A program made the translations under genes and the position numbers. A stretch of 35,980 nt of DNA from a virus. The notes under the pieces are model-generated. The model saw nothing but the letters and a program-made list of their open reading frames with translations, made no database searches and was not told where the DNA came from. Location: IMG/VR virus record IMGVR_UViG_3300037247_002101, positions 1-35,980 of that record; one strand, 5' to 3'. Below, piece by piece: positions 4,552 to 24,269 of this stretch (its first letter is position 1; each line of letters starts with the position of its first letter).

Positions 4552-4563
4552 TTTTTATGCTCC

Positions 4564-5350: not shown

Positions 5351-5364
5351 TTGAGACCTGTTCT

Positions 5365-5658
5365 CTATTCTGTGGCTTTTTTCTCTTTTAATTCTGCGAT
5401 GAAAGCATTAGCCATTACTTTGCCAGCTTCCACATACTCAGCCACTTTTTGTTGTTCTTCTGCAGCTTCTACATCAAGCTCAATAAGTTTTTCAGCAAGG
5501 TTTTCAACATCTTCGGCTTTGTAATCTTCGCCATACTCATCTTCAAGAAGTTCTTCGGCAGCAGAAGCATATTTCGTCAGCATTTCGCGACGTTCGGCAT
5601 CAACTTCTTGAACCGCAGCTTCTTTTTGCATGTCTTCATAAGTATCTAAAAGTCCCAT
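5365..5658 (-). CDS. Helical acidic virion-cluster protein, tandem paralogue
   Basis: 97 aa, beginning MGLLDTYEDMQKEAAV. Very acidic and helical. The middle (about 29-70) matches the product of 5024-5350, and the end, VAEYVEAGKVMANAFIAEL, matches VGQLVEEGQVMARSFHEEL inside the repeat protein at 5660-6304. All three genes therefore share modules. RBS GGAGAGG lies upstream. It could be a scaffold or internal head protein, inferred from composition and place only. Confidence 0.65.
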   Translation of the reverse strand: MGLLDTYEDMQKEAAVQEVDAERREMLTKYASAAEELLEDEYGEDYKAEDVENLAEKLIELDVEAAEEQQKVAEYVEAGKVMANAFIAELKEKKATE

Positions 5659-6377: not shown

Positions 6378-8123
6378 TTAATTACTATCGATTACTATAT
6401 TATAAAGATTTCCGAATTTTTCTTCGTTTAATTCAAGTGAAGCTTGAAAAATTTTGTCTCTAGCTTCACCCACTTTTGTAAGTAATTTTGACGCTTTACT
6501 ACCAAGAAAACCGTGCCCAATGCTACTAAGCAAAGGATTTTTTCTAACAAAGTCAGCGTAAGAGCTTATAGGTTCTCTTTTTCTTACTTTACCTTCTTGA
6601 TAACCGGCATATAAGTATGTTGCTGGAACACTCAAAAGCATGCTAGTTAGAAAACCTAAACCTTCTGCTGTTTTTTCTAAAAACTGCTTTTGAATTCCCA
6701 TAGTTCCAACAGTTGCCCCACCAATGAGTATAGGCAACAACCATGGATTTCTAGCTATTAACGCCCTTACTCCCTCTGCTTGTCCTACAGAATTCATTAA
6801 TCTTGATAATCCGTAATACAATCCGCCTAGGGCAGCCAAAGGTAGTAAAGGATTCTTTATTGGTAAAATTATCGGCACCTGCTCTGCGGATTGTGTAACC
6901 ATTTTATCATCCGGCATATCTTTTAAAGGAGGCACAATGCCAGCCTGTTCCATTCTACTTCCTTTTTGATGGCCTATATCAAGCGATGCGTACTTTTCTA
7001 ATATGCGTGCCATTACAACTGGTTTTGTTAAAGGCGCCCTTTCCAAGTAATCTGGATACGATTTTAATACATTTGCAACTTTTTCACTAAAATAATTGCA
7101 TCCTATATCATTTGGAATAATAGGTTTTATATCATCGTGAATAATAAAAGTAACGTTTTCTTTTTCCAGTTCTTCTGCTAATTTTTCTTGCCCTTTAGAG
7201 GTCAATGCTAATTTCTGGAATTCAGCTTTTTTAGGCATTACACGCATTGCTACAAGGGTACTTAAAACCTCGTTTAATGGTGCTGACCCTGCCAGATCAC
7301 CTACCATTTTTGCAGGCATGTCCGGTTGTGAATCAACTATCAACCTACTTGGATCTGGTCCAGCGTTGTCTACTTCACTTTCTACTATCTTGACAATATC
7401 AGCTTCTTTAATACCAGCATCTTTTAACTCTTCTGCGGTTTTTATAGCGGAAGGAATAACAACACTGTTGTCGCTGGCTACTTTCTTTAGGGTGTAAGCC
7501 GTACGATCCGCAGGGACGTGAACAAAGCTGATATCAAAAAACTTAGGTTTTGTATTAATGACATAGACTTTTCTTCCATCAGGAAGAACTTTATTCATCA
7601 TAGTTCTTGCATGTTCACAATAATCTTGTATTCTCGGCGCTCTATTACCACAAATAGAACATTCATCATATGGGACCCTTGATCCCATAGAAATAGGTGG
7701 GAACTCACCATCGTCAATCTTCTTTTTTAAGTCAGGAGCTGCATTTATATCTAATCCAATAACTAACTCTACACGATGCATTTTATGATTATAATGTGAA
7801 TATAATATTTCTCCGTAAATTCTATGTCCTAATTTGGGTTTATTTCTGTGATGACGATAAACATTGCCTAATGATTCAAAAGTCTTATGATATTCAACCA
7901 AAGCAGGTTCAGGAAAATAATCCCCATTACGATTACTTCCATAAAATTCTCCGGCTCCTAAAGCATTAACTAGAAGAAAATACCTTTTCAAATCTGGCAT
8001 TAATTTCTGTAAAAATTCTTGAAGTTCCGGATCATAAGAAGCAGTTTTTTCCAATACTCCAGGATGTATAAGAGATATTTCTACGCCTTCATCGCCTGGA
8101 TAATAATCTAAGTATTTAATCAT
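6378..8123 (-). CDS. Prohead (capsid maturation) protease-like protein with membrane-like C-terminal region
   Basis: 581 aa, beginning MIKYLDYYPGDEG. Residues about 55-215 look like a head maturation protease: NRNGDYFPEPALVEYHKTF, YRHHRNKPKLGHRIYGEI, then GEFPPISMGSRV, where Ser in ISMG matches the nucleophile position of the HK97-type LSIGF motif, and nearby His residues could be catalytic. A cysteine pair (CSICGN) plus DYCEH may bind metal. The C-terminal half has several EK.A motifs and glycine-rich hydrophobic stretches (LPLAALGGLYYGL, LPILIGGATVGTMG). It would process scaffold and capsid N-arms. It overlaps the upstream gene by ATGA. The protease call rests on motif order, not alignment. 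Confidence 0.65.
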   Translation of the reverse strand: MIKYLDYYPGDEGVEISLIHPGVLEKTASYDPELQEFLQKLMPDLKRYFLLVNALGAGEFYGSNRNGDYFPEPALVEYHKTFESLGNVYRHHRNKPKLGHRIYGEILYSHYNHKMHRVELVIGLDINAAPDLKKKIDDGEFPPISMGSRVPYDECSICGNRAPRIQDYCEHARTMMNKVLPDGRKVYVINTKPKFFDISFVHVPADRTAYTLKKVASDNSVVIPSAIKTAEELKDAGIKEADIVKIVESEVDNAGPDPSRLIVDSQPDMPAKMVGDLAGSAPLNEVLSTLVAMRVMPKKAEFQKLALTSKGQEKLAEELEKENVTFIIHDDIKPIIPNDIGCNYFSEKVANVLKSYPDYLERAPLTKPVVMARILEKYASLDIGHQKGSRMEQAGIVPPLKDMPDDKMVTQSAEQVPIILPIKNPLLPLAALGGLYYGLSRLMNSVGQAEGVRALIARNPWLLPILIGGATVGTMGIQKQFLEKTAEGLGFLTSMLLSVPATYLYAGYQEGKVRKREPISSYADFVRKNPLLSSIGHGFLGSKASKLLTKVGEARDKIFQASLELNEEKFGNLYNIVIDSN

Positions 8124-8743
8124 TTATCTTCTTTATCTTCTTTGGGAAACTTAATTTTTGTATAAAGGTTTTCTGGCTTTTTGGAAACTGCTGATACAAG
8201 AGGTTCTGTAAATTTGCCAATATCGAATGCGGATTCAGACATAAATCTTTTGTTTAAAGCATCCATTGCTTTATTTTCTATTTCAGCCAAATCTCTTACA
8301 GTTGTAGGTGATACGGGAGCTGAACTTTCATCATACCATTCTAACATTTGAAGTAGAAATGTTTTAGCAGATAAAGGGTCTGTTGCTATGTGTGGGGAAA
8401 AATGCTCTAAAGTCTTAAAATATTGTTGTGCCTCTTCTCTTGGATATTTGCCTATTTCTGGTGAACTGTAAATTTCATCGAATACTCTTTGAGCATCTGA
8501 TCTTAAACCTTCTCGTGTTTTTTTAGATATAAAATAATCAGATATAGTTCCAGCAGCAGCTGCTCCAACTCCGGCTGCGGCTGTTATAGCTGCACCAAAC
8601 AACAGACCTTTTGTAGTAGACGACAGCTTGCTTTCTTTCATCAACTCTGCTACTTTTTCTTTGAAAACGGCCATTTTTATCATGGTTGTGTCATCAACTT
8701 TGCCTTCTTCATATAATTTCAATATTCTCTTTGTGTATGACAT
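8120..8743 (-). CDS. Virion-cluster protein with Ala/Gly-rich transmembrane-like segment
   Basis: 207 aa, beginning MSYTKRILKLYEEGK. The N-terminal helix contains FKEKVAELMKESK (about 28-40). A strong hydrophobic Ala/Gly segment follows, LLFGAAITAAAGVGAAAAGT (about 47-66), then a soluble helical part. RBS GAGGTAGAG lies immediately before the ATG, 3 nt after the preceding gene. No family is recognised. The hydrophobic segment plus virion context suggests an ejected or membrane-inserting protein, as inference. Confidence 0.65.
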   Translation of the reverse strand: MSYTKRILKLYEEGKVDDTTMIKMAVFKEKVAELMKESKLSSTTKGLLFGAAITAAAGVGAAAAGTISDYFISKKTREGLRSDAQRVFDEIYSSPEIGKYPREEAQQYFKTLEHFSPHIATDPLSAKTFLLQMLEWYDESSAPVSPTTVRDLAEIENKAMDALNKRFMSESAFDIGKFTEPLVSAVSKKPENLYTKIKFPKEDKEDK

Positions 8744-8745
8744 CT

Positions 8746-9705
8746 CTACCTCTTTTTATACCTTTCCGGAATGGTTCTTATGGCCGATGTTTCGTATTCA
8801 GCTTTTGTCTTACCAGCTTTGTATGCTAAACCAGTAGCTCCTGCTGCAACTGTTGCTCCTCCGAACATTGCAATATAAGGATGTGTGGCTCCAAATCTAA
8901 CAGCATCTCTTGTAGTACCTGCTATGCTAGATCCAAGACGCTTGAGCATTTGAGTGCCAAAACTAGCTAATTTTTCACTATAGTTCATAGCCTCTTCATA
9001 GATAACTGCCAATTTGTCTATTTGTTGAAGAATTTCATTGTTTTTATTTACTGTTCCAAGTTTTTCTTCTGTTTCAGAAAGATCCAATCTACGATCTTCT
9101 TCTTTGAGTCTTTCCTTTGTTAACTCCGAAAACTTCTCAGTAAATATTCCAGGAGAGTGCTGTTCCATCGCGGTCTTTATATGCCCAAAGCGGGTACCTG
9201 TAAGCACCGCTTGTTTCACCAACTGATATAAATTCTCCGTTTCCTCCGAAAAAGCATTTTCAGCAAGAGAAATTTTGTCTATCAATTGTTGTTCTGCATA
9301 CTTAGCGCGTTGACGAAAGCGAAGATTGTCGGCTGAGAACTGGTTCTCATCCTGAACGGAGGAAATCTTCTCAGCACCCTCGACTGGAAAAATTGCAATT
9401 TCATCAAATTCTTTTTCAGGTGGTTCATTGTAGTCCGAAAATTCATCGACATCTGTCGATGGTTGTAAGTAGTCTGCTACTTTTTCAGAATTAGCAACTG
9501 GAAACTCTATGTACTTATCGTCTAGGTTACTAAACATTGATAAGTATGTACTAGTGTTTGCTGCCTCTACAATTCTTTCTATTTCATATCGGTTTAAAGC
9601 ATGCTCTTCTGCTAATTTTGTAATCGTTTTATTTAAATCCGTACCTTCTTCAATGTACGTTTTAGCAGCTTCTTTACCGAAATATTCTATTTGCTCGTTT
9701 GTCAT
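8746..9705 (-). CDS. Virion-cluster protein, helical with C-terminal hydrophobic segment
   Basis: 319 aa, beginning MTNEQIEYFGKEAAKTYIEE. The N-terminal helices include ITKLAEEHALNRYEIERIVE and ANTSTYLSMF. EK motifs recur (NSEKVADYL, GAEKISSV, YSEKLASFG). A coiled-coil region (about 190-235) is followed by PYIAMFGGATVAAGATGLAY (about 275-294), a probable membrane segment. It is the first gene of a new operon with its own promoter and RBS GGATGGAAG. The family is not recognised. It belongs to the same style of protein as its two downstream neighbours. Confidence 0.68.
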   Translation of the reverse strand: MTNEQIEYFGKEAAKTYIEEGTDLNKTITKLAEEHALNRYEIERIVEAANTSTYLSMFSNLDDKYIEFPVANSEKVADYLQPSTDVDEFSDYNEPPEKEFDEIAIFPVEGAEKISSVQDENQFSADNLRFRQRAKYAEQQLIDKISLAENAFSEETENLYQLVKQAVLTGTRFGHIKTAMEQHSPGIFTEKFSELTKERLKEEDRRLDLSETEEKLGTVNKNNEILQQIDKLAVIYEEAMNYSEKLASFGTQMLKRLGSSIAGTTRDAVRFGATHPYIAMFGGATVAAGATGLAYKAGKTKAEYETSAIRTIPERYKKR

Positions 9706-9733: not shown

Positions 9734-9762
9734 AATATAAGACGTTTGTCTTATTTTGTCAA
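9734..9762 (-). promoter_or_regulatory. Sigma70-like promoter with inverted repeat in spacer
   Basis: TTGACA (9757-9762), 17 nt, TATATT (9734-9739). The inverted repeat ATAAGAC GTTT GTCTTAT (9737-9754) fills the spacer. It drives the 8746-9705 gene and the protease gene. The -35 box overlaps the stop codon of the upstream gene. Confidence 0.8.
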
Positions 9763-10343
9763 TAGGTAATTCCTCTTTTTCTTAGCCATGTTTTTATGCC
9801 AGGTGTCGATGGATCATGTGATTTCGAAACTGACCACCAATCAGCGAAGTTTTCTAAATTTGGAACTCCTGTATTTTTGTATTTATAATCATGATGACTC
9901 TCTAATCCAGCATGCTCTGCCACAGCTTTCCTGAAGGTTCTATAAGTTTCTGGATCCCTTCCATGTCCGCCATGGAACTGTTCACGATATGCTACCCAGA
10001 TAGAAGGTTTTAACTTAGTTATATCATGCTTAATAAGCGCGATAGGATCTGCTCCTAATTCTCGACCACCTTTATAGACATAATACTTATGCTTCGCAAG
10101 ATATTTTAGGCTTTCCCAGTCTTCTTTGCGATTCTTCCACCATTCAGCAAAGTCCGCTGTTTTTTCAAGTGATTTTACAAATGAACTCTCAACTCCCATC
10201 CGTCTAAAAAGTTCTATACCACTAACTCTTTCATAATTTGAGTCTTTTATTTTTTTTGATATTTCAAGATTCACCTTATTTACTTTATTTGCCAATTGTT
10301 TTGCTTTTAAAACAACTAATGCATTTTTCTCAAAGTATTTCAT
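9759..10343 (-). CDS. DUF5662-like protein with MKYFEK N-terminus
   Basis: 194 aa, beginning MKYFEKNALVVLKAKQ. The C-terminal half (about 80-180) matches the DUF5662 pattern: LAKHKYYVYKGGRELG, IALIKHDITKLKPSIWVAY, then ESHHDYKYKN and FADWW. This family has HD-like His/Asp residues (H-D, HH) suggesting a metal-binding hydrolase fold; its reaction is not known to me. An internal SLEKTADFAEWW repeats the cluster motif. A second DUF5662-like gene lies at 24247-24705. The Shine-Dalgarno sequence is weak (AAGAT 4 nt away). Confidence 0.75.
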   Translation of the reverse strand: MKYFEKNALVVLKAKQLANKVNKVNLEISKKIKDSNYERVSGIELFRRMGVESSFVKSLEKTADFAEWWKNRKEDWESLKYLAKHKYYVYKGGRELGADPIALIKHDITKLKPSIWVAYREQFHGGHGRDPETYRTFRKAVAEHAGLESHHDYKYKNTGVPNLENFADWWSVSKSHDPSTPGIKTWLRKRGITY

Positions 10344-10344
10344 T

Positions 10345-10836
10345 TTATCTTAACTTATGCATTATTGCTTTTAAAATTCCTTGGGGATATAATAATCGTG
10401 TGGATTCTAATGTTCCACCTAGTATTCCTTTTACTTTATTTTTTAAAGGAATTTTTAAGCCTTTTATACTTCTTTTATAGGCAATTAATTCTTCCCTCAT
10501 GGTTGAAACAACTCCTAGAATTCCCCTGTCCCCCAATCTATTCATTTTACCTTTTCTATCTCGTAAATAGTGCGTTAACTCGTGATCCTTAATGATTTTA
10601 GTTTGTTGTTTTGGTGTTAAAAATCTAGTATTTTCAAAATATTCTTCTGGTTTTTGGACAAATATTCCTTTCTTTAAAGATTTCAAAGAGGGATCTAATT
10701 TTTTTGCAACATCCGGATTTTGTGCTATTCGTTTTTTAGGTATATAATAGCCTGCCATTTCCGGGTTTCTTGTTACATCTGGCCATGTCATTTTATAAAT
10801 TACAGGACCTGCTGCTGTTTTCTCAAAGTATTTCAT
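10345..10836 (-). CDS. HExxH metallopeptidase-like protein with MKYFEK N-terminus
   Basis: 163 aa, beginning MKYFEKTAAGPVIYK. It has an HELTH zinc-binding motif at about 85-89 and a downstream REEL (about 113-116) that could supply the third, Glu, ligand of a gluzincin-like site. The sequence HELTHYLRD(K/R)KGK is shared with the N-terminal part of the neighbouring helicase fusion (11082-12929), as is the opening (K/R)YFEK.AAGPVI, so the two are paralogous. Peptidase activity is inferred. It is short for a full protease and may be a structural zincin relic. Confidence 0.68.
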   Translation of the reverse strand: MKYFEKTAAGPVIYKMTWPDVTRNPEMAGYYIPKKRIAQNPDVAKKLDPSLKSLKKGIFVQKPEEYFENTRFLTPKQQTKIIKDHELTHYLRDRKGKMNRLGDRGILGVVSTMREELIAYKRSIKGLKIPLKNKVKGILGGTLESTRLLYPQGILKAIMHKLR

Positions 10837-11082
10837 TTATTTCTTAATTTCTATTGTGGTTTTAGTAAAGCCTTTTATTGCACCCAATCTCTTTGCTTTT
10901 GCATACATATCTTCAAATGAATGTTTGGCTGAATGTTGTTTTAATTTATCGGATTGTTTCGATGCATTATTATAAATTCGCTGCAATGTATCTAATGTTT
11001 TTTTATCAAACTTGATATTTTTCTTAGGTAAAGCTTTTGCTATTAAATCCATTGTTACAGCTATTTTTTCAAAGTATTTCAT
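10837..11082 (-). CDS. Small basic helical protein with MKYFEK N-terminus
   Basis: 81 aa, beginning MKYFEKIAVTMDLIAK. Lys-rich and helical, without cysteines or hydrophobic segments. The start codon overlaps the helicase stop (TAATG), with AAGGA upstream. It could bind DNA, but nothing specific is recognised. Confidence 0.65.
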   Translation of the reverse strand: MKYFEKIAVTMDLIAKALPKKNIKFDKKTLDTLQRIYNNASKQSDKLKQHSAKHSFEDMYAKAKRLGAIKGFTKTTIEIKK

Positions 11083-12929
11083 TACACATCCTTGATAGCT
11101 TCTAATAGTTGTTTTATTTCTCTATTTTTTCTTTTAGACATACTCATTAAATATTCATCTACACTTGTTCTTTTCTTAGTAACACCAAAAATATCAGTTT
11201 CCTGAGGAAATACTGACACATATTTTTTAACTTTCACAGTCCTACTAGGATCAGCTCCTCTCCTAATTCCGCGTGCTGCAGCTTGTTGAGTTCTGGATTT
11301 ATTCCAATATGGTTCAGCTATTTGTACCAAAGTAGTTTTTGGAAGATTTAACCCCTCAGATCCTGCACCACTGTATAATAACAGTTTATTTACTCCCTTT
11401 TGATATTTGGTTACTTCATCTGCTTTTTGTTTTTTAGACATGCCACCAACTATCATACCATGAGGAACTTTAAATTTTTTGAATCTTTCTGATAAAGCAT
11501 CTACTCCGGATCTTCTGAAATTAGAATACGTTAATACTTTTCCACCTTTAGCTAGTTCAGCTCTTGCATCTGCAACCATTTTCTCAAATTTTGGACTGCT
11601 GTTAGCTTCCTTAACAAAACCACGAGTTGTATTTGATATTTGTCTAACTCCCATTAAGTATGCATTTAGTTCCTTCGCCTCTGCTTTAGTAGGCGGTAAA
11701 TTTTTTCTAATTTTGTATTTTAAATAAAATGGTAGTTTTTTGCTTACATATTTATAAAGTTCTTGTTGTTCTTTTGACATAGGAATTTTTATAACTTCTT
11801 CAGCTTTTCCTGGCATCAAATCTTTGACACTGGACTTACTTACAACATAGGTATGCTTATCCAATAAAGCACGCATCTTAGCGGGATCTTTCAATACTCT
11901 TTCTTTCGCACCTTTAATTCCGAGCATTCTGCCAATGATTCCAGGATCAGTTTTTACCTCTGTATAATATTTCTTGTAAAACTTTGATTTGTTCATTGGC
12001 AGGATTTTTTTATTAGCAACCAAATTAACCTGAGAAACAATATCGTAAGGTTCATTGTACATCGGAGTAGCTGTTGCTAATAGGGCCTTATCATATTTCC
12101 ATCTTTGCATTGCAATATTTTGGAAAGTTTTTGTTTTTGGGTTTCTAATAGCATGTGATTCGTCTAATACAAGATGTTTAGCTTCCGGCAAATTATGTCC
12201 CCGGGATAACTTAGCATAAGTGAAACTCTTGCGAGGAGTAACTTTTTTGAAAAACTTCATCTCCTCTTTAGCCAAATTTTTTGTAATAGATGCAGGCGTG
12301 ATTGCAACAGTCTTATCACCTCGAGTAGCCTCTAATATTTTTTTAGTTTTACCCGATCCAGTTGGTGCAATATATACCAAACCTTTGGGACTTGCCTTGT
12401 ATTCTTCTACTAGTCCTGCTCTTTTTATAAATTTTTTTAATGCCTGCATAGGAGGATAACCTTTCAAAGCTAACACAAATCCTTTCAATTTACCGCCTTC
12501 TGCTCTACCATACGCTGCTGTCTCTTCAACTAATTTGGCAGGATAAAACTTATTAGAATTTTTATAAGACCTTTTTCCTTTTTTATCTCTTAAATAATGC
12601 GTTAATTCATGTTGTCTTGAATTTTTTACATATCTTTCAGTTTGCCACTTAAATATTTCTTTAAATTGTTCTGGCGTGTATTCTTTGTAATCAGCCCGCA
12701 TCGCGCGTTTCCTACCTTTGAATGGATTAGGATCTACTAAAATTAAACCTTTTTTAGTTGCCTTATATTTTTCTAAAAGTTTTTCAGCTTTTGGATCTCC
12801 TTTTGCTTTGTTTGCGCCTACATAAATAGCATCTAGGTCCATTCCTGGTGGTCCTGGTGGAGCAATTCCTGCTGGAGGTTTTTTATATACAATTACAGGG
12901 CCGGCCGCTATCTTTTCAAAGTATCTCAT
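11082..12929 (-). CDS. Fusion: HExxH metallopeptidase-like domain plus SNF2/SF2 helicase
   Basis: 615 aa, beginning MRYFEKIAAGPVIVYKK. Residues 1-160 resemble the protein at 10345-10836, with HELTH at 107-111 and EE at 135-136. The rest is a superfamily-2, SNF2-like ATPase: Walker A APTGSGKT (188-195), DESH box (256-259), ATATP (about 285-289), then a second RecA-like lobe with YSNFRRSGVDAL, GAGSEGLNLP and the arginine-finger motif QQAAARGIRRG. Such proteins move along double-stranded DNA. With the MRYFEK tag and late-operon position it may be packaged and act on incoming or host DNA (inference). The Shine-Dalgarno sequence is poor, and the ATG lies 1 nt after the terminase stop. Confidence 0.85.
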   Translation of the reverse strand: MRYFEKIAAGPVIVYKKPPAGIAPPGPPGMDLDAIYVGANKAKGDPKAEKLLEKYKATKKGLILVDPNPFKGRKRAMRADYKEYTPEQFKEIFKWQTERYVKNSRQHELTHYLRDKKGKRSYKNSNKFYPAKLVEETAAYGRAEGGKLKGFVLALKGYPPMQALKKFIKRAGLVEEYKASPKGLVYIAPTGSGKTKKILEATRGDKTVAITPASITKNLAKEEMKFFKKVTPRKSFTYAKLSRGHNLPEAKHLVLDESHAIRNPKTKTFQNIAMQRWKYDKALLATATPMYNEPYDIVSQVNLVANKKILPMNKSKFYKKYYTEVKTDPGIIGRMLGIKGAKERVLKDPAKMRALLDKHTYVVSKSSVKDLMPGKAEEVIKIPMSKEQQELYKYVSKKLPFYLKYKIRKNLPPTKAEAKELNAYLMGVRQISNTTRGFVKEANSSPKFEKMVADARAELAKGGKVLTYSNFRRSGVDALSERFKKFKVPHGMIVGGMSKKQKADEVTKYQKGVNKLLLYSGAGSEGLNLPKTTLVQIAEPYWNKSRTQQAAARGIRRGADPSRTVKVKKYVSVFPQETDIFGVTKKRTSVDEYLMSMSKRKNREIKQLLEAIKDV

Positions 12930-12930
12930 T

Positions 12931-14478
12931 TTACATCAACAATGTATCTCTAGCTGTAAGAAGTTGTAATGCCAATTCACCAAATAAGATAGAATGCAAT
13001 GCATCGTCCGGTCCGGTACTCACATATTTGTATGTACCTAAATTCTCATCATATTCGATAATTATATTTAAAAAGTCATCTGCAAATGATTCAAAATCTT
13101 CCCATCTCGGAAATTCTATTTGACGATTCTTTATTTTCCTAAATAGGTCTGTCATCACCATATTACGATTCAATGTATATTCATTGCTTTTACGATTCCA
13201 TTTAGCTTTTGCACGCTGTGATCCAGAATGCCTGAAAGCTATCAATCGTTCTGGATATCCTATGCGAGAACGTATTTCTGAATTTGGGCCATCACCTAAT
13301 CCCGCATCTGCCCCTATTACTGCTGTATGCCATTTAGCATGTATTCTAGGAACATCGCTATGTATAAATGTGTAATCAGCCTCATGTCCTTTATATCTTT
13401 TCAGATGTAAAACTTTGACTTTGCTGCCACGGCTCTGAAGTACCGATACTACTGTTTTAGATTTATTGCTATTTACTGGGCCATAATCAAGTCCAATAGT
13501 TGTTTGTCTATTAGATAAATCTATTGATGTTGGATCTTCCGTCATAATACCACCAGTACAGCATCTTTTCAAATCTGCAATGGTAATTGGCTGAACACCT
13601 TCATCATACTCAAGCCCTAAAACTTCATTATAAAAAGTTGCATCACTTGAACAAGTTTTCCTATAATCAATTACATCTAATTGCCAATCAACCCATGGAG
13701 CTTTTGCAAACATTAGGAGATTAACCCTAAAACCCTTAGTTCTAGAATTAGGGTCCCCAGTGCTTACCCATTGTCCTTTGGTAGTATCAAGGTGCTCTCC
13801 ACAATAACGGCAGATAACTCCATGTAATCCTATATTTTTCTGATCTAAAAAATTCCACTTATTACAATGTTTACATTTGGAAAACCATTCATACATTGTA
13901 GACCGATACCAAATATCAGCCAAGGTACCTTTTGTACGCTTCGGTGTACCGGAAAAAACCACTTTTTTGTATAAAGATCTGGACATAGATTGGTTAATAA
14001 TAGGAATAATATCTATGCTTAAATCTTGCGCCTCATCAAAATAATTTATATCAGTAGATAATCCACGAAGACGATCAGCTGATTGTAAAGCATATCTCAG
14101 GTATAACGTACTACCATTAAGAAATCTTTTAGTAAAAACGTTTTGCGATACATTAGAATTTACATAATGTCTTTTTATAAGGGGACTTGATTCAATAACT
14201 GGAGCTACGCGATCGCCAGAAAATATTTTAGTCTGATCCACAGAAGGTGATATGTATAATTGTCTAAAGTGTGATTCCATTGCAGCTTTTGACATCATGA
14301 TATTAGCCATCGTTGTAGATTTTGATGTTTGACGACTAAATTTCATCACTATCTCTTGTGCATCCAAATCATAAATCGGCCGCATAAACTCGTAGTTTTG
14401 GAAAGAAAATGGCTTACCATTTAAGTGGAGAAATCGTTCGGTAAATTGACTTACTGATATCTTAATTACTTTGGCCAT
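12931..14478 (-). CDS. terL: Terminase large subunit
   Basis: 515 aa, beginning MAKVIKISVSQF. ATPase lobe: Walker-A-like SRQTSKST (about 48-55), Walker B INYFDEAQDL, and coupling motif VFSGTP. A zinc-binding insert, CKHCNKW and CRYCGEH, lies between lobes. RNase-H-like nuclease lobe: GLDYGPVNS (first Asp), IGADAGLGDG, and the final GPDDALHSILF (third acidic pair). All features of a DNA-packaging motor are present at normal length. It lacks the EK.A tag seen in its virion neighbours. It overlaps the 70-aa gene upstream by 13 nt. Confidence 0.95.
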   Translation of the reverse strand: MAKVIKISVSQFTERFLHLNGKPFSFQNYEFMRPIYDLDAQEIVMKFSRQTSKSTTMANIMMSKAAMESHFRQLYISPSVDQTKIFSGDRVAPVIESSPLIKRHYVNSNVSQNVFTKRFLNGSTLYLRYALQSADRLRGLSTDINYFDEAQDLSIDIIPIINQSMSRSLYKKVVFSGTPKRTKGTLADIWYRSTMYEWFSKCKHCNKWNFLDQKNIGLHGVICRYCGEHLDTTKGQWVSTGDPNSRTKGFRVNLLMFAKAPWVDWQLDVIDYRKTCSSDATFYNEVLGLEYDEGVQPITIADLKRCCTGGIMTEDPTSIDLSNRQTTIGLDYGPVNSNKSKTVVSVLQSRGSKVKVLHLKRYKGHEADYTFIHSDVPRIHAKWHTAVIGADAGLGDGPNSEIRSRIGYPERLIAFRHSGSQRAKAKWNRKSNEYTLNRNMVMTDLFRKIKNRQIEFPRWEDFESFADDFLNIIIEYDENLGTYKYVSTGPDDALHSILFGELALQLLTARDTLLM

Positions 14479-14678
14479 AATTCAGTATTTAAAATTCCTT
14501 CTATAGTAATGTCCGGAAATTTTCCTGCTGTCATACTAATAGAAAGATTTGTTGTATAAATATTTACTTCTGATAATTTTTTTGATACAGTATTTTGTAT
14601 ATTAGCAAGATCAGGAAGTGGTTCTGCTTTTTTTACTGCGGAAGTGTTTATTATTTTAATTTTAGGCTTCATAATCAT
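14466..14678 (-). CDS. Small protein between two packaging-region genes
   Basis: 70 aa, beginning MIMKPKIKIINTSAVKK. Ends with TAGKFPDITIEGILNTELWPK. It overlaps the gene before it by 17 nt and terminase by 13 nt, so it is translationally coupled to both. No family is recognised. Confidence 0.6.
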   Translation of the reverse strand: MIMKPKIKIINTSAVKKAEPLPDLANIQNTVSKKLSEVNIYTTNLSISMTAGKFPDITIEGILNTELWPK

Positions 14679-15597
14679 CTATATCCCTTGGTTTTTGTGG
14701 AGCTGCGGTACTTATATCCGCCATATGTTTAAAATCTGGAAGATTGCTTTTTGTCTCATATTCATCAAACTTGCCACCAACTTCTGCACCTATCTCTTCT
14801 GCTGTTGGAGCTTTAATTATTTCGTCATCTTTACCCAATTCGAACTTAACTTCGGAAAACAAATCATTAGCTTTTTGGTCATTTTGGATTACACGTTCTA
14901 ATCTATCAGCAAGTTTTACTGCCAGGCTACCAAATTTAGTTGCTGTTTCTGGATCTGTCAATACTTTCTCTTTAAACAGATAATATGAATCAGCTAACAT
15001 ATCACGAAGCATTTGATCAAAACTTTTATCCGGAGCTGCCCCAAGTTTCCAAAGCATATAATTTTTATCACCTTTAAGTGCCAACTTAAAAGCACGTTTT
15101 GTACTGACGTCTTTCGCGAAAGAATCTTCTAATGTAACCTTTTCAGAATAATTGAAATCTGTTAAATTGAAAAAATAATATAAAAAGGCATCAACATCAT
15201 CTGAAGATGCATTAATATCAAATTTACCATTTACAATCAATTCCATGTCTTCTGCAGATGTGCCTGCCAATGCCATTGCGTACAATAGTATACGCAGTTG
15301 TACATTTTCTAATAGTGCAAAAGCGCCTCTTATAGGATTCGTATCTAAATCAGTAGATTTTTTGAACTGATAAGCCCACATTTGATGTAGTCCTTCTCTG
15401 TCCAAAAAATCCCGATCAATCTCTTTTCTGCGATGATTAAAATATGCAGTCTGTTGAGGTTTTATTTCCATGTATATGTCTTGAAGATCCTGTGCCGGAA
15501 AAGGTAAATTCCATTTGCTTAATTCTTCAAAAACCTGATCAGGTCCATATCGTTCACAGAGTAATGCTTGTATAAATTTTTTGTGTGGCCATTTCAT
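14662..15597 (-). CDS. Unknown protein upstream of terminase, possible small-terminase analogue
   Basis: 311 aa, beginning MKWPHKKFIQALLCERYG. The N-terminus (about 6-45) is a helix-turn-helix-like run, FIQALLCERYGPDQVFEELS. The middle is helical, with FALLENVQLRILLYAMALAG and YYLFKEKVLTDPETATKFG. The C-terminus is low-complexity and acidic. Its location just before terminase is where the small subunit is usual, but the sequence is not recognised and the length is large for that role. The start overlaps the upstream stop as TAATG. Confidence 0.65.
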   Translation of the reverse strand: MKWPHKKFIQALLCERYGPDQVFEELSKWNLPFPAQDLQDIYMEIKPQQTAYFNHRRKEIDRDFLDREGLHQMWAYQFKKSTDLDTNPIRGAFALLENVQLRILLYAMALAGTSAEDMELIVNGKFDINASSDDVDAFLYYFFNLTDFNYSEKVTLEDSFAKDVSTKRAFKLALKGDKNYMLWKLGAAPDKSFDQMLRDMLADSYYLFKEKVLTDPETATKFGSLAVKLADRLERVIQNDQKANDLFSEVKFELGKDDEIIKAPTAEEIGAEVGGKFDEYETKSNLPDFKHMADISTAAPQKPRDIDDYEA

Positions 15598-18062
15598 TAT
15601 TTATTCATTTCTTTTTGAAACTTGTCTAAACCTTTATGTATAGCATAAATAGCGGGAATTCCTAAAGCTACAGTTCCAACTCCCTTGGTTAAACCTTTGT
15701 GTCGTCTTAAAAATTTTCTAGTTGCCTGAACTGCAGAAACAGAACTATCTTTAGTTTTCCCTTTAATAACGTCTTTTATTACAGCTGGAGTTTCCAAAAT
15801 CAGTCCACCAGTTGCTTGTGCTGCAAATCCTCCTCCTACATTAATTGCGGAGCTAACTCTTTTACTAACATTAGATGCAACACCAACAGCAGTTGTAGCT
15901 GCGCCTGTCAAAGTATCAGTAGCATCATCTTTTTTCAAGCCTTTATAAGTTCTCATAAGTCCTTCTGCAACTAAAACTGGTGCAAAAAAATTGCTTTTCC
16001 CCAGAGAAGGTGTGCGAGCTTTTTTTAGAACTGGCATTACTTTTGCGAGTTCAGCAGGCATAATAACTTTTGTACTCACGGATGCCTTTCTTGCTTTCTC
16101 TGTCAATCCATGTGCAAAAGTCACACATGTTCCTTTTATTACACAATCTTTTTCAAATTTAGTTTTAAAAACCAAAGGGTTATATTTTACTTTTCCTTGC
16201 TTCATTTTTGTTTGCACTGTTTTTTCTAATTTAGTTAATTTTTTTGGATCAAGATCAGCATATCTATGAATTGCCCCTAATTCCCTAGCATGCTTCCTGC
16301 TAAAAACTTGTCTTTCTGACGTTTTTTTAGTACTAGGATCTATATATTTTTCAGAAACATGGGCAGTTTGAAAAAGTTTTCCCTCCAAAGACCCTTCTCT
16401 GGCAACAGTACTTCCGGGATATGCTTCCATAATTTTTCCTTTTCCTCTATAAGGCCTCTTAGGATCAATTGGAGCATCTGGTAAAACTTTTTTTGAACGT
16501 ATACCTTTTTTCCAGCCTTTATCATCCGGCCAATCATGATAGGCGGTACTAGTGACTACTACCGGATGCCCTTTACCTCTAGCGAAGCTATCTTTAAAAA
16601 ATACAATGTCTCCTTTTTTTACATCTTTATAATATTTTTTTACTTCATCAAATGACGCAAAATCTACCTTTCTTGAACTAATATCATGTAATTTATTTTC
16701 AGCGGCTCTAATACTAAATGCTGCAGCAGAAGAAATGGCTACTCCCTTTGTTGTTTCACTGTCTAAAATATTTTTCTTTTTAGCTGATTGTTTTAATAAG
16801 TAAGATCCAGCTAATCCAACTGCGCCTACTCCTGCTAAAATTTTTCCACCTTTCCTCAAATTTTTAGTAAATTTTTTAGAGGATTGCAAATCTTTTTTAG
16901 CGGTACTCACTATTTTTTCTATATCTGCCTTTCCTACCATAATTGATTTTTTGGTAGGTTCCTTTAATTTATCTACTTCTTGCAATTTTTTGACTAATGC
17001 ATCAGTATCATGACCCTTTGATAAATCATAAAAAGTCGCCCCACCAACTTTCTTTTCAAACCATTCAATATTAGTTTTAAAATGTTTTTCCCCTTTTAAA
17101 CCAAGTCCAACTATCTTAGGTTTATATCCTTTTATAGAAGCCAATTCTGCCAATGTAGATCCTGGTGCCGCTATAGATACACGAGATTCAGTAAAAAACT
17201 TTTTAACTCCTGGAGCGTCTGTTTTTTGTATATAGTTTATAGATTTATGTTTTTTTGCAGCTTCTCTAAAAGTTTTATCAAATCTACCTACGAAAGGGCC
17301 ACCTAATATTTTTAGGTTGTATTTTTCTTTACCATAATGGATATCTAATGCCTTAACTATCTTATCAATGTCTTTTCCACCTTTTGGCAATGCCTTAGGC
17401 CATACATATCCAGTACCACCATATAAAGAAATTGTTTTTTTGGCTGTTTTTAAAGGCTTTACCCTTTCCTTACTAAAGGCCTCACTTACAGGAATACTAG
17501 AAACATTTATGTTTGGTTTTTGAGCTTTTGGTGTTTTTATAATTTCTCCACCAGGTACTATGTTTCTAGTGTAAATTGGACCTTTAGGGGCCTTCATCCA
17601 ATTCTTAGTACCTAAATATCTATTTCCCGTAACTAAATTGCCGGGGCCAAAATCAGTAAATTGCCTATAAGTGGTTTTTCCTTTTAATATCCTATCAAAT
17701 GCAACTCCTAAATAAGTTTTCTTAGGATGCCTGCCAACATGAATCTCCGCCAGTGGTTTTTTAGCAATATCACCACTTATAGGATACTTTCCTGGTTTAT
17801 ATCCGGGCATTTTGTAATCAGCAGCTTCCTCAACTTTAACACCACTAGCAGTAAACTTTTTAACCCAACTTTGTCTTTGTGTATTAAAAACGGTTTTTTC
17901 TTCAGGAACACCTTTAGGAGAATAGGTTCCTCCCCTTATTAGAACTTTATTAGGATCAATTTTTTTCTGATATTGTTCTCTAACTTTAGATACACCATAA
18001 GTCCCAGCTCCGGCTGCAACTAATCCTGCGGATATGTTTTCTACTTTTTTATTTTTTGCCAT
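15597..18062 (-). CDS. Multidomain protein: MurG-like glycosyltransferase region plus permuted NlpC/P60-like domain
   Basis: 821 aa from ATG at 18062 (GGAGG 8 nt upstream; the GTG at 18071 sits too close to that site). A hydrophobic N-terminus (about 10-25) is followed by a GT-B-like donor domain at about 210-360, with YGGTGYVWPKALPKGG and AAPGSTLAELASIKGYKP, as in MurG/PseG proteins. A glycine-rich hydrophobic segment lies at about 408-423. Residues about 480-660 resemble a circularly permuted NlpC/P60 (YiiX-type) cysteine hydrolase: KKGDIVFF, GHPVVV (His499) and KGTCVTFAHG (Cys646). More hydrophobic helices end the protein. It could modify or cut cell-wall glycopeptide during entry (inference). 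Confidence 0.72.
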   Translation of the reverse strand: MAKNKKVENISAGLVAAGAGTYGVSKVREQYQKKIDPNKVLIRGGTYSPKGVPEEKTVFNTQRQSWVKKFTASGVKVEEAADYKMPGYKPGKYPISGDIAKKPLAEIHVGRHPKKTYLGVAFDRILKGKTTYRQFTDFGPGNLVTGNRYLGTKNWMKAPKGPIYTRNIVPGGEIIKTPKAQKPNINVSSIPVSEAFSKERVKPLKTAKKTISLYGGTGYVWPKALPKGGKDIDKIVKALDIHYGKEKYNLKILGGPFVGRFDKTFREAAKKHKSINYIQKTDAPGVKKFFTESRVSIAAPGSTLAELASIKGYKPKIVGLGLKGEKHFKTNIEWFEKKVGGATFYDLSKGHDTDALVKKLQEVDKLKEPTKKSIMVGKADIEKIVSTAKKDLQSSKKFTKNLRKGGKILAGVGAVGLAGSYLLKQSAKKKNILDSETTKGVAISSAAAFSIRAAENKLHDISSRKVDFASFDEVKKYYKDVKKGDIVFFKDSFARGKGHPVVVTSTAYHDWPDDKGWKKGIRSKKVLPDAPIDPKRPYRGKGKIMEAYPGSTVAREGSLEGKLFQTAHVSEKYIDPSTKKTSERQVFSRKHARELGAIHRYADLDPKKLTKLEKTVQTKMKQGKVKYNPLVFKTKFEKDCVIKGTCVTFAHGLTEKARKASVSTKVIMPAELAKVMPVLKKARTPSLGKSNFFAPVLVAEGLMRTYKGLKKDDATDTLTGAATTAVGVASNVSKRVSSAINVGGGFAAQATGGLILETPAVIKDVIKGKTKDSSVSAVQATRKFLRRHKGLTKGVGTVALGIPAIYAIHKGLDKFQKEMNK

Positions 18063-19179
18063 ATGCCACACCTCCGGCTACTAACCCGGCTCCTGCTATA
18101 ATTTTTGCTATGTTTCTTATTAAATGACCTTTTTTCGGTTTTATGTTTTTTATTTCATCTATAAATGCTTTTCTGGCCGTTCCAAGATTTTTTTGAAACT
18201 TTCCTACATCTTTAGTTCTCTGAAATTTTACAGGATCATCTAAAACTTTGTTTACGTGAGCTCGTAATTTTGGTATTTCATCTGCTGCAAAATTTTCAAT
18301 TTTATAATATTTTTTTGCAAATTCCATGTTTTGTTTACTAGCTCCCATATGACCCAACCTGCTAGCATCTGTAAATAATATATTAGGATTTTTAAAACCT
18401 AATTGTTCAGTTACAGACATAGATCCACCATAACCAATATTTAATGCTGAATTAGATAAAACTTTTTTAAAATCCTTGTTTGGTAATTTACCAATGATTT
18501 TTACTTTTTTGTTTTTTTTCTCTATATTTTTTAATTCTTTTAATCCTGATTCATTTATTCCACCTGATAAAACTAATAATTGGGCATCTTTTCTATCTTT
18601 TAAACTTTCTAATATTTTTTGTGTTTTGCCAGGCAATCCTATTCCTGTACCACCCGCTGATAGAGTTACATATTTTTTATTTTTTTGTAATTCTATTCCT
18701 TTTGCTTTTAAAACATTTTTTATAGCAGACGAATCTACAGTTTTTTGCTTCTCTACATTGATAGGAAATATATCTGTGGCTTTAGAAGATGGTTTATAAT
18801 CAATAGGAGGCGTCTTAATTTTTGTTTCTTTTCTAAAAAGATAATCAGGTCCATAACCCGCGTCAACATAACCTTTATATTTTCCCCTATTCCACCAACC
18901 CCTGGCAATGTCTTTCATGCTCATACCACTTAATAAATCAGCTTTTTGCCCACGAGACTCTAATAATTTTTTATAGGTCCTTGCCTGCATAACATGGCCA
19001 GCACCTCCACTTGCTCCTAAATTTCGCAAAATTTTTGGTGGTTTCCATTGCCCGTACGAAATGGCTATTCTATCTGCTTTAGTTAAGTCATCCTTTATTC
19101 CTTTCAACCCACTAAGAGTTGCGCCAGTTCCAACAACAGAAGTACCAATAATAACAGCCTTTTTATCTTTTTTCTTCAT
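18049..19179 (-). CDS. MurG-like GT-B glycosyltransferase with terminal membrane segments
   Basis: 376 aa, beginning MKKKDKKAVIIGTSVVG. After a short hydrophobic N-terminus come the acceptor-domain hallmark GASGGAGHVMQARTYKKLL (about 55-73), similar to the GGTGGH loop of MurG, and the donor-domain signatures VTLSAGGTGIGLPGK, VKIIGKLPNKDF and NIGYGGSMSVTEQLGF. A hydrophobic C-terminal helix (IIAGAGLVAGGVAYGKK) overlaps the next gene by 14 nt. MurG-family enzymes transfer a sugar to a lipid-linked acceptor. The acceptor here is unknown. There is no Shine-Dalgarno sequence, and the -10 box ends 5 nt from the ATG. Confidence 0.75.
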   Translation of the reverse strand: MKKKDKKAVIIGTSVVGTGATLSGLKGIKDDLTKADRIAISYGQWKPPKILRNLGASGGAGHVMQARTYKKLLESRGQKADLLSGMSMKDIARGWWNRGKYKGYVDAGYGPDYLFRKETKIKTPPIDYKPSSKATDIFPINVEKQKTVDSSAIKNVLKAKGIELQKNKKYVTLSAGGTGIGLPGKTQKILESLKDRKDAQLLVLSGGINESGLKELKNIEKKNKKVKIIGKLPNKDFKKVLSNSALNIGYGGSMSVTEQLGFKNPNILFTDASRLGHMGASKQNMEFAKKYYKIENFAADEIPKLRAHVNKVLDDPVKFQRTKDVGKFQKNLGTARKAFIDEIKNIKPKKGHLIRNIAKIIAGAGLVAGGVAYGKK

Positions 19180-19184
19180 AAAGA

Positions 19185-19213
19185 AATATAAATATCTGAT
19201 CGATGAAAGTCAA
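19185..19213 (-). promoter_or_regulatory. Sigma70-like promoter, leaderless geometry
   Basis: TTGACT (19208-19213), 17 nt, TATATT (19185-19190), then TCTTT and the ATG. It is divergent from the plus-strand GGCATAAGA element 10 bp away. Confidence 0.75.
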
Positions 19214-19222
19214 GCAGTTATT

Positions 19223-19246
19223 GGCATAAGAAGCATGTATAAAACT
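19223..19246 (+). promoter_or_regulatory. GGCATAAGA promoter-like element
   Basis: TTGGCATAAGA, 6 nt, TATAAA, then the AGGAGG of the 19258 gene about 6 nt further on. One of 11 copies in the window, all on the plus strand. Confidence 0.6.
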
Positions 19247-19257
19247 AGGAGGTAGAC

Positions 19258-19788
19258 ATGAGTATTTTAAGTTTTGGCAATCGTATTTTCCTGGATATTC
19301 CAGGACAAACCCTTTACAAAGTTTTCACATGGCCTTTCAGAGGTAAGAAAAAGAAAGTTGCCATAGGAAAAAAGAAAAGGGAAAAAGTGAGTCTTGAAAA
19401 AGATCACATAAATCTCGCCGTAAAACATCAGAAACTTGGTGAAAAGTACGCTAAGTTAGCTGGTGACTTTTCTGAAACTGCCAAAAGAATGGGTCTTGTG
19501 GAAGTTGAACGGGATGGTCATAAAGAGGGTGAAAGGCAGGCAAAGGAAATGAATACGGCATTTCAGAACACCGTCGACGAAAAAGATACGGAATTGACGA
19601 AGGCAGCTGTGGATCTGAAGCAAGCAAATGTGAATCTGGGGAAGGCAAATGTGAATCTGGGGAAGGCAAATGTGGATAATCTGAAACTTTCATCCGACCT
19701 GAAGCAGGCAAGTCTGGATAATCAGAAACTTTCAACCGACCTGGAAGCAGCAGAAACTGCCCTAGAAGGAATGAAAAAATCCGCCTAG
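19258..19788 (+). CDS. Coiled-coil protein with basic N-terminus
   Basis: 176 aa, beginning MSILSFGNRIFLDIPG, with AGGAGG 7 nt upstream. A Lys-rich stretch (RGKKKKVAIGKKKREK, about 29-44) is followed by a continuous heptad helix to the end. The last 70 residues are repeats of the type LKQANVNLGKANVNLGKA and DLKQASLDNQKLSTDL. The role is unknown; the repeats and helix suggest a rod or tether. It forms a single-gene cassette with its own promoter and terminator, lying inside the minus-strand late region and pointing the opposite way. Confidence 0.75.
   Translation: MSILSFGNRIFLDIPGQTLYKVFTWPFRGKKKKVAIGKKKREKVSLEKDHINLAVKHQKLGEKYAKLAGDFSETAKRMGLVEVERDGHKEGERQAKEMNTAFQNTVDEKDTELTKAAVDLKQANVNLGKANVNLGKANVDNLKLSSDLKQASLDNQKLSTDLEAAETALEGMKKSA
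19624..19674 (+). repeat. 21-bp tandem repeat in coiled-coil gene
   Basis: GCAAATGTGAATCTGGGGAAG is present twice without change, followed by a partial third copy. It encodes ANVNLGK units. A weaker ~54-bp repeat (CTGAAACTTTCATCCGACCTG and relatives) follows. Confidence 0.8.
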
Positions 19789-19796
19789 GAAAACAG

Positions 19797-19822
19797 AAAA
19801 GGTCACATATGTGGCCTTTTTA
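19797..19822. terminator. Bidirectional terminator between convergent genes
   Basis: Stem AAAAGGTCAC / GTGGCCTTTT with loop ATAT and U-tracts on both sides. It separates the coiled-coil gene (plus) from the LigD-like gene (minus). Confidence 0.8.
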
Positions 19823-20254
19823 CTCTGGTGTGGTGAGCATATATTTTTTACCTTTAACATTGGACAGTAAAAGGAATTCGCCTGTATCTAATTTAAATTT
19901 TATTCCTTTATCATCTATTGAATGAAGTTTGGTTTTTCCTCTTCTAAGCAATTTTACAGTGCCAGTGCCTTTAGCTGTAGTAAGAGGTCCTTCAAAATCT
20001 AAGTGTCTCAAAGAGTGATCTTGAGTTCTACGTGTCATCACCGGGGAAGTAATGTTCATAGGAACTTTGCGAGAAGCCCACGAATACGCAAAATCTTGAC
20101 CAGGTTTGGCTAAACGGAAATCGAAATGGGTACCATTCTGATTTTTATGCATTTGTATAGCATAATCCCACAATTCTTCTTTTTCCTGGGGTTGAATAAA
20201 ACGATAGCCATAATGATAATATTTGGGGTTATTTTTTGTAATGTTCTTGCTCAT
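19820..20254 (-). CDS. Stand-alone LigD-type 3'-phosphoesterase domain
   Basis: 144 aa, beginning MSKNITKNNPKYYHYGY. It matches the phosphoesterase (PE) module of bacterial DNA ligase D: AIQMHKNQNGTHFDFRL (33-48), YSWASRKVP, TQDHSLRHLDFEGPL (77-91), then GTGTVKLLRRGKTKL. The metal/catalytic residues of the family are present (His36, His43, Asp45, His80). In LigD this domain trims 3' ribonucleotides and phosphates from broken DNA ends, normally fused to ligase and polymerase domains. Here it stands alone, about the size of the domain. It starts inside the upstream gene (26-nt overlap), with no ligase or Ku gene visible nearby. Confidence 0.85.
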   Translation of the reverse strand: MSKNITKNNPKYYHYGYRFIQPQEKEELWDYAIQMHKNQNGTHFDFRLAKPGQDFAYSWASRKVPMNITSPVMTRRTQDHSLRHLDFEGPLTTAKGTGTVKLLRRGKTKLHSIDDKGIKFKLDTGEFLLLSNVKGKKYMLTTPE

Positions 20255-20501
20255 AAAAATGTTTACCTAAACCAAGAAAGGCCCCTCCCAATCCACCTAA
20301 AATACCGAAAAGTGCCGTATTAGGTTTTATTTTTTTAATTCCTTCTACGAGTCTTAATTTCCTTTTTATTAATGCTGCTTGTGCCTCTGCACTAAGTCCT
20401 CCTACGAGTGCCCCGATGGCTGTACCACCTGCAATATTTTCTGTAAAAGAAAAATCCTCATCCCAGGTTTTATACTTGGAGGTTTTTTCAAAATACTTCA
20501 T
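20229..20501 (-). CDS. MKYFEK protein with two glycine-rich hydrophobic segments
   Basis: 90 aa, beginning MKYFEKTSKYKTWDED. Hydrophobic segments IAGGTAIGALVGGLSAEAQA (about 24-43) and ALFGILGGLGGAFLGLG (about 63-79) flank a basic linker, giving a membrane-hairpin look. The start overlaps the previous stop (TAATG). It is similar in plan to the next gene upstream. The function is unknown; an ejected membrane-active virion protein is an inference. Confidence 0.68.
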   Translation of the reverse strand: MKYFEKTSKYKTWDEDFSFTENIAGGTAIGALVGGLSAEAQAALIKRKLRLVEGIKKIKPNTALFGILGGLGGAFLGLGKHFYEQEHYKK

Positions 20502-20797
20502 TACCTGTAGCCTGGATTATCTTTCCTACGCTGCAATTCTTTTTGTATCTGTTTTGTTTTTGATAACTCTGATAACGCACCAGCACCTGTTCCCAGGCCT
20601 CCCCAAACAGCAATATTTTTTAAGTTTGCTGCTACTCCTTTTTTTGGAAGCAGAATTGATCCAGCTAATGCCCCAAGGGCACCTGCACCTGCTACAGGCC
20701 AAGCAGTATTTCTATCTAATTCTTTCCTTAACCTTTCAGATGAGACCTGCTTTTCATCAAGAACAAATTGCACTGCTATCTTTTCAAAATATTTCAT
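20501..20797 (-). CDS. MKYFEK protein with glycine-rich hydrophobic segments
   Basis: 98 aa, beginning MKYFEKIAVQFVLDEKQ. It has WPVAGAGALGALAGSILLP (about 33-51) and IAVWGGLGTGAGALSEL (about 62-78), separated by a short basic stretch, and a charged C-terminus. RBS AAGGA lies 10 nt upstream. It is the same two-hairpin plan as its downstream neighbour, so the pair is probably paralogous. Confidence 0.68.
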   Translation of the reverse strand: MKYFEKIAVQFVLDEKQVSSERLRKELDRNTAWPVAGAGALGALAGSILLPKKGVAANLKNIAVWGGLGTGAGALSELSKTKQIQKELQRRKDNPGYR

Positions 20798-20809
20798 TAT
20801 GTTTTTTCC

Positions 20810-21349
20810 TTAATCTAATAACGTTGTACCAACAATGCCCGTTCCCAGACCTAATGCTCCTGCTCCTACTAGTCCTGTAATATCTTTTTTATCAGTTGGT
20901 TGTACTACAGGTTGTACTGCAGATCTTCTTTTAGTTGTAGTTTTTCTTTTTTTATAACCACTACCTTTTGCTTTAGTAGTCCCATGTGCCTTTGTAGATC
21001 CTATAGCCGGCCCTTTGCCTGCTATTCTAGCTCCACTCGGCCCTCCTGTAGGCATTACAACTGATCCTGTTACAGGTTTTTTGGTCCTTTTAAGAATTTT
21101 TTCGAAAAGTCCTGCATCTTTCTCAAAATATTTAATTGGATTTTTTTCAAAATACTTCATTTGTAATGATCCTTTTTTTTCCGGCAAGTTTTTATGTTTG
21201 GTTGATGCGAAATCCTTCGCATCGCTATACTCTGTGTTTCTTGCGGCTTTGCGTATGGCCGGCCCTACCTCGCTTGGAGATAGATCACCTTTTTGTACAG
21301 CGTGCACCATGCCAAAAAATCTTTGTTGTTTTTTACTTTCTGCTGGCAT
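20810..21349 (-). CDS. DUF3008-like protein fused to an MKYFEK-type protein
   Basis: 179 aa, beginning MPAESKKQQRFFGMVHAV. Residues 1-60 match the DUF3008 pattern (MPA.SK.QQR..GMVHA.QKG, ending DAKDFASTKHKNLPEKK). That family is normally a stand-alone protein of about 60 aa. At about 64 the frame continues MKYFEKNPIKYFEKDAGLFEKIL, with two copies of the tag motif, then a Lys/Thr/Gly-rich linker and a C-terminal hydrophobic segment, LVGAGALGLGTGIVGTTLL. An AAGGA lies 10 nt before the internal ATG (about 21160), so a second shorter product could be made. First gene of its operon, behind a strong promoter. Confidence 0.75.
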   Translation of the reverse strand: MPAESKKQQRFFGMVHAVQKGDLSPSEVGPAIRKAARNTEYSDAKDFASTKHKNLPEKKGSLQMKYFEKNPIKYFEKDAGLFEKILKRTKKPVTGSVVMPTGGPSGARIAGKGPAIGSTKAHGTTKAKGSGYKKRKTTTKRRSAVQPVVQPTDKKDITGLVGAGALGLGTGIVGTTLLD

Positions 21350-24232: not shown

Positions 24233-24269
24233 AATACGTAGAGAGGCTACTTTGGCTTCTCTACGTATT
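24233..24269. terminator. Convergent bidirectional terminator
   Basis: Stem AATACGTAGAGA with TCTCTACGTATT (12 bp), 13-nt loop. It lies between the plus gene ending at 24225 and the minus DUF5662 gene ending at 24247, and serves both. Confidence 0.6.

Follow-up and report, generated by a model that had tools for sequence, protein, structure and literature searches.

Why do several otherwise dissimilar late genes of one phage begin with the same few residues? The question is raised by IMG/VR virus record IMGVR_UViG_3300037247_002101; the window analysed here is the whole record, 35,980 bases, in which the head genes and the genes sharing the N-terminal tag all lie on the minus strand. Six genes, starting at 10343, 10836, 11082, 12929, 20501 and 20797, begin with M(K/R)YFEK, as an earlier sequence-only reading had stated. 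The answer that we hold to be quite probable is that the complete tag, M(K/R)YFEKx(A/S), is a capsid-targeting propeptide like that of phage T4, ending in a site for the phage's own prohead protease, which would cut it after the alanine, and that the tagged proteins are cargo packaged in the head.

A short tag on dissimilar proteins

The tag is eight residues long, with position 5 differing between phages (E, T, N or K); the reversed pattern, used as a control, gave zero matches in the window. The Tyr, Lys, Glu and Ala codons of the tag copies differ synonymously, which points to selection on the protein. Since, in addition, the 20 nt upstream of the tagged starts are not conserved, what is conserved is the protein and not a copied DNA block; duplication of a gene start or ribosome-binding site was ruled out on the same two grounds. 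The gene starting at 21349 holds two further copies, as had also been seen: MKYFEKNP and IKYFEKDA stand in tandem, preceded by a DUF3008-like domain and followed by a basic tail. An AAGGA-like sequence, AAGGATCATTACAA, lies upstream of the ATG at 21160 (the counterpart in G001/L008, a 156-kb relative reached through its terminase with 84% identity, is AAGGGTCAGTACAA), and this ATG may be a nested internal start giving a second, tagged product.

The bodies behind the tag had been called unrelated. This holds broadly, with an exception in the window: the protein starting at 10836 is a paralogue of the N-terminal part (∼155 residues) of the one starting at 12929 (29% identity, E 4e-9), and both are HELTH zincin-like. 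BLAST gave no mutual relation among the remaining tagged bodies of the window, a search for close relatives with the zincin-like body found none, and an AlphaFold model of that body was too poor to use (predicted local distance difference test, pLDDT, 52.5). The window encodes two DUF5662 proteins, a tagged one (9759-10343) and, outside the head block, an untagged one (24247-24705, E 8e-36); G001 likewise has two.

Further carriers were found when related genomes were searched for the tag and the attached bodies were tabulated, as the sequence-only reading had proposed. In the IMG/VR motif scan most single MKYFxKxA matches fell within unrelated proteins and were put down to chance. Ten tagged open reading frames (ORFs), of which two use GTG/TTG starts, lie near the head genes of G001, and another lies at 95 kb; in relative G009 (53 kb) 19 genes begin with the tag, mostly as MKYFTKxA, and stand in tandem on a single strand, with zero matches to the reversed pattern. 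When the parts after residue 8 were compared (cut-off E 1e-3), the 45 distinct tagged ORFs, the relatives being uncultured phages, fell into 29 body clusters; so many body families exclude common ancestry of whole proteins, the alternative that the earlier reading had set against its own proposal. Positions 1-4, 6 and 8 of the tag are fixed while their codons change synonymously, position 7 is free and conservation is zero from residue 9 onward; position 8 is A in 35 tags, S in nine and Pro in one (A/S in 44/45). In other lineages the same core follows a different leader: MKYFTKxA, MNKY(L/I)EKIA, MxNxYLEKIA and MxKAxxxFxKxA. We regard both the tag and its modularity as established.

A motif common to the head operon

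The tag ends in five residues, F-E-K-x-A, that match a wider motif, Φ-x-K-x-A (Φ being hydrophobic), and here lies what the earlier reading had missed: the second half of the tag appears to be a cleavage site common to the whole head operon. With expected counts obtained by shuffling, the head operon of the window, from the major capsid protein (MCP) gene up to the terminase gene, holds 26 copies versus 5.3 expected (P about 1e-10), and the 21-36 kb region one copy versus 4.5. An unbiased scan of 2,000 residue pairs found K.A to be the most over-represented pair in the head block of the window (45 versus 17) and also the top pair in the head block of the cultured Salmonella phage Arash (39 versus 17). 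Glutamate-type cleavage sites ([LI].E, A.E and [SAG].E) were considered and rejected, being near chance in the head block.

The 10-kb bin of Arash that holds the head genes has 35 motif copies versus 6.6 expected, and the G001 bin matching the head genes has 26 versus 8.0. Enrichment at P below 1e-8 was seen in every one of eight head blocks taken from different lineages. Together these blocks contribute 230 sites in 68 head proteins, from which the consensus [LIMFV]-E-K-x-A↓S emerges (the arrow marks the predicted cut), with Ser following Ala in 61 of the 230 sites, 3.8-fold over background. Another sample, of 81 loci, was chosen solely by the protease described below (80 from IMG/VR and one from a Bacteroidales metagenome-assembled genome, MAG; some are near-duplicates). 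These loci hold 2,629 copies versus 685 expected, and in 76 of them, each taken singly, the enrichment has P below 1e-4. On the head strand, motif density at residues 5-10 and 21-30 is about twice that further inside. Extension of the motif to phage G and to actinobacteriophages, which have distant protease homologues, was rejected on copy counts only: phage G has some copies, seven of them in gp19, and none in its MCP, and Gordonia phage Pupper and Mycobacterium phage Myrna have scattered copies only, none at the MCP N-terminus.

A tblastn search with the prohead protease of the window (Table 1) matched a Gordonia phage Pupper protein annotated as capsid maturation protease (E 2e-7). For the AlphaFold model of the window protease, of low confidence (pLDDT 57.6), the top three PDB matches were T4 gp21 (E 0.05), human cytomegalovirus protease was also among the fold matches and many prohead proteases were matched in BFVD; searching PDB sequences with a profile of the protease gave nothing meaningful. 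The candidates for Ser/His catalytic residues, read from the alignment, in which they are invariant, are S145, H79, H91, H92 and H171. Among nine divergent homologues the motif occurs at one aligned place on each side of the conserved domain (9/9 before it, 8/9 after it). In the MCP, K-x-A occupies residues 25-27, directly before a conserved (S/A)xF(I/V)RxK segment, in 9/9 homologues (with Φ in 6/9).

The motif is also found at two fusion junctions. The DUF5662 protein of the window reads ...VKSLEKTADFAEWW at the position where the G001 protein starts MKYFEKQADFSEWW, and in G001 the helicase is a separate protein beginning MRYFEKNADIVREYK, where the zincin-helicase fusion of the window has ...KKFIKRAGLVEEYK at the corresponding place. 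Each junction has lost the start (MKY) and kept Φ-x-K-x-A, the pattern expected from selection on a cleavage site. We likewise take as established that the motif is common to these proteins, that it sits at domain boundaries and that a protease is encoded in the same operon.

Table 1. Tagged genes, motif sites and head-operon genes of the window
Feature	Position	Strand	Remarks
Major capsid protein	2786..3706	-	PHROG 2522 major head protein, E 6e-16
REKLA, MCP residues 23-27, putative propeptide end	3626..3640	-	K-x-A in 9/9 homologues
Four small head-operon proteins, scaffold/core candidates	4204..5658	-	10 copies of Φ-x-K-x-A
Acidic scaffold-like protein, VEKTA repeats	5660..6304	-	LEKLA (5993-6007) in 9/9 homologues
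Prohead (head maturation) protease	6378..8123	-	PHROG 18299 head maturation protease, E 3.6e-10
LKKVA, residues 212-216, putative site after protease domain	7476..7490	-	8/9 homologues
LEKTA, residues 24-28, putative site before protease domain	8040..8054	-	9/9 homologues
Head-operon protein with MIKMA	8120..8743	-	Motif only
Core/scaffold-like protein, four motif copies	8746..9705	-	ITKLA (9610-9624) in 9/9 homologues
LEKTA, residues 59-63 of DUF5662-type protein	10155..10169	-	Aligns with N-terminal tag FEKQA of G001 homologue
Tag MKYFEKNA	10320..10343	-	DUF5662-type protein, gene 9759-10343; body PF18907, E 4e-8
Tag MKYFEKTA	10813..10836	-	HELTH zincin-like protein, gene 10345-10836
Tag MKYFEKIA	11059..11082	-	Small basic protein, gene 10837-11082
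FIKRA, residues 167-171, zincin/helicase junction	12417..12431	-	Aligns with tag FEKNA of separate G001 helicase
Tag MRYFEKIA	12906..12929	-	Zincin-like + SF2/SNF2 helicase fusion, gene 11082-12929; PF00176/PF00271
Tag MKYFEKTS	20478..20501	-	Gly-rich membrane-hairpin-like protein, gene 20229-20501; G001 homologue VKYFEKIS
Tag MKYFEKIA	20774..20797	-	Gly-rich membrane-hairpin-like protein, gene 20501-20797
Tandem internal tags MKYFEKNP (from 21160) and IKYFEKDA (from 21136)	21113..21160	-	Gene 20810-21349

Several further observations come from other phages. A 635-residue protein of G001 (L041, 22116-24023) has eight motif copies and its counterpart in relative G008 (L161, 6027-7943) seven; it is distant from the head operon, adjoins a tagged gene in G008 and is a candidate for another internal head protein. 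Large RNA-polymerase-like proteins of Arash (L016, 94-4671) and Vibrio D69 (L017, 6289-10872) start MPKSA/MPKKA, with Met at the Φ position, possibly a minimal tag that loads a virion RNA polymerase. Two N-terminally tagged early-region proteins of Arash (gp95 and gp100) are annotated 'structural protein'. The G009 prohead protease reads as one 1,371-residue frame holding two intein-like inserts with C...HN borders, one of them at a conserved segment, between YYG and SNxNGD; the G009 terminase holds two more (L160/L159, G009 37068-41183 and 32382-35609). Enlarged terminases were also seen in L032 and L164, the one in L164 having a Hint-like start. The Bacteroidales MAG contains a protease relative (L215).

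Proposed cleavage and packaging weighed against other readings

In the mechanism that we propose, the tag would recruit a protein by co-assembly with the core inside the prohead. The protease encoded at 6378-8123, of gp21/assemblin type, would recognise Φ-x-K-x-A and cut after the alanine, (F)EKxA↓, and the eight-residue propeptide would be lost in the course of head maturation by the protease. Besides the tagged proteins, the enzyme would act on the N-terminus of the MCP, on itself and on the scaffold/core proteins. A division of labour modelled on T4 would assign MKY to targeting and FEKxA to cutting. Cleavage, the cut position after Ala, packaging and injection are what we infer from the sequences: the tagged proteins are probably loaded into the head, trimmed, retained in the mature virion and carried with the DNA into the next host cell.

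The T4 precedent was already invoked in the sequence-only reading. The T4 capsid-targeting sequence (CTS), found on IPI-III and Alt and removed by gp21, is, like the tag here, a short N-terminal propeptide on differing proteins. Its residues 4 and 7 target and residues 8 and 10 process (PMC9026906), that is, targeting residues come first and processing residues last, and a gp21-type protease is present here too. This part of the parallel stands: the tag is a separable module, its core is common to the MCP, the scaffold-like proteins and the protease, and the cognate protease is in the operon. The predicted specificity differs from that of T4, a point that the earlier reading had also missed. 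In T4 the cut follows Glu (the P1 residue), whereas the predicted cut here follows Ala, with Lys at P3; glutamate motifs, including the T4-type [LI]-x-E↓, are near chance in the head block and K-x-A is strongly enriched. For this reason the tag is described as CTS-like and is not counted as a member of the T4-type CTS. The T4 CTS is also longer (10-19 residues versus eight), and the tag here is on many more families and has lineage-specific leaders. The tag core is the head-operon motif that flanks the protease domain, a consensus itself derived from sequence; the resemblance of MKYFEKIA to the T4 sequence quoted in the earlier reading may be chance.

Proteases of the T4, φKZ and SPN3US types cut after Glu (PMC5694885, PMC10052503). 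The SPN3US gp245 and φKZ gp175 systems share with the present one several cleavage motifs in propeptides, self-processing of the protease and many internal head proteins. They differ in an AXE or SXE motif with P1 Glu, in propeptides that for several internal proteins exceed 100 residues and in the lack of a short tag shared by a wide range of cargo; here motifs of the [ASG]-x-E type are near chance ([SAG].E and A.E both), and the tags have eight residues. In phage P1, an N-terminal segment of DarB is enough to bring a foreign protein into the head; the signal has 10-30 residues, and no consensus common to the Dar proteins was found. The T4 gp21 class has the herpesvirus protease fold (PMC5694885), and the assemblin of pseudorabies virus (PrV) cuts after Ala, at YLQA-T and VQA-S (PMC4498786). 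The R- and M-sites of herpesvirus assemblins, like the putative site here, have P1 Ala followed by Ser or Thr; the PrV sites, unlike it, are without Lys at P3. With a predicted Ala cut here, Glu in T4, φKZ and SPN3US and Ala in PrV assemblin, the specificity would be closer to that of the herpesvirus enzymes, though the protease is phage-type. To our knowledge, no N-terminal cargo tag exists for herpesvirus assemblin. In the literature we did not find an assemblin-like, non-glutamate specificity reported for phage prohead proteases, and the putative cleavage site of this CTS-like cargo tag looks new. Literature searches for the tag strings and for phage Arash yielded no relevant paper and no paper, respectively.

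Several points weigh against cleavage and packaging. The protease model has a pLDDT of 57.6 and a best PDB E-value of 0.05. The MCP of the window has Arg at the Φ position, and position 8 is Ser in 9/45 tags and Pro in 1/45. No protease match was present in the tag carriers G008 (169 kb, five tagged ORFs), G010 and G013 (both smaller), which may be due to incomplete records. The 'structural' labels in Arash carry no stated basis in the record, and a literature search found no cleavage data or virion mass spectrometry for any member. Finally, the consensus was drawn from the same proteins in which enrichment was tested; the pair scan and the protease-selected loci are independent of the choice of consensus.

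Of the competing explanations, the one that survives best takes Φ-x-K-x-A for a docking motif, a short helix that binds a core or shell partner, so that the tag recruits proteins to the prohead and stays on. The motif is repeated at many places in the scaffold-like proteins, as docking repeats would be, and Glu is frequent before the Lys, with acidic residues preceding the motif. We nevertheless find docking unlikely: the motif brackets the protease domain, sits in the N-terminal segment of the MCP and alone survives at the domain fusion junctions, and Ala at P1 with Ser enriched at P1' is an assemblin-like cut pattern. It is less plausible still that the tag sends proteins elsewhere (to the host membrane, a polar body or a host protease). 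Two tagged proteins of the window do resemble membrane hairpins, but the same core motif is present in the MCP, the scaffold-like proteins and the head protease, and soluble enzymes, the helicase for one, are among the tagged ORFs. That the tag is a neutral remnant of one ancestral gene, or of 5' ends copied by recombination, is the least credible of all, for although two window bodies are true paralogues and tagged genes run in tandem (19 in G009), the bodies form 29 clusters, positions 1-4, 6 and 8 stay fixed despite synonymous codon changes and differing upstream DNA, and other lineages have different leaders on the same core.

Neighbouring genes and implications

The gene adjoining the MCP gene (2100-2702) encodes an HNH endonuclease with tandem KSDKGKL-type repeats. 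Adjoining the tagged genes, and itself untagged, is a stand-alone DNA ligase D 3'-phosphoesterase domain (19820-20254, PF13298). The late block further includes two large proteins (15597-19179): one, at 18049-19179, has a weak match to the GT28 C-terminal (MurG-like) domain, and the other, of 824 residues, matched no known family. At 31954-32688 a phage protein ends in a sorting domain of the Por/T9SS C-terminal type (PF18962, E 2e-9), which points to a host in the Bacteroidota/FCB (Fibrobacteres–Chlorobi–Bacteroidetes) group.

Beyond the reading of the tag as a cleavable capsid-targeting propeptide, we lean, less firmly, towards a wider picture. A large, mostly uncultured phage lineage would use a modular cargo-loading code, made of a lineage-specific leader and an (E)K-x-A↓S site of assemblin-like specificity, on as many as about twenty accessory genes in a genome, as an injected effector set; the proposed cargo includes helicases, HExxH proteins, DUF5662 proteins and membrane hairpins. 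If this is true, virion cargo would be predictable from DNA by the first eight residues of a protein, with 19 candidates in one 53-kb contig. Many candidate head-loaded proteins have no known function; injected internal proteins of T4 block host restriction (PMC12373910), and such precedents suggest that some serve counter-defence. The phages would also possess a protease with an Ala-directed site near those of herpesvirus assemblins, and a short tag able to load foreign proteins into phage heads.

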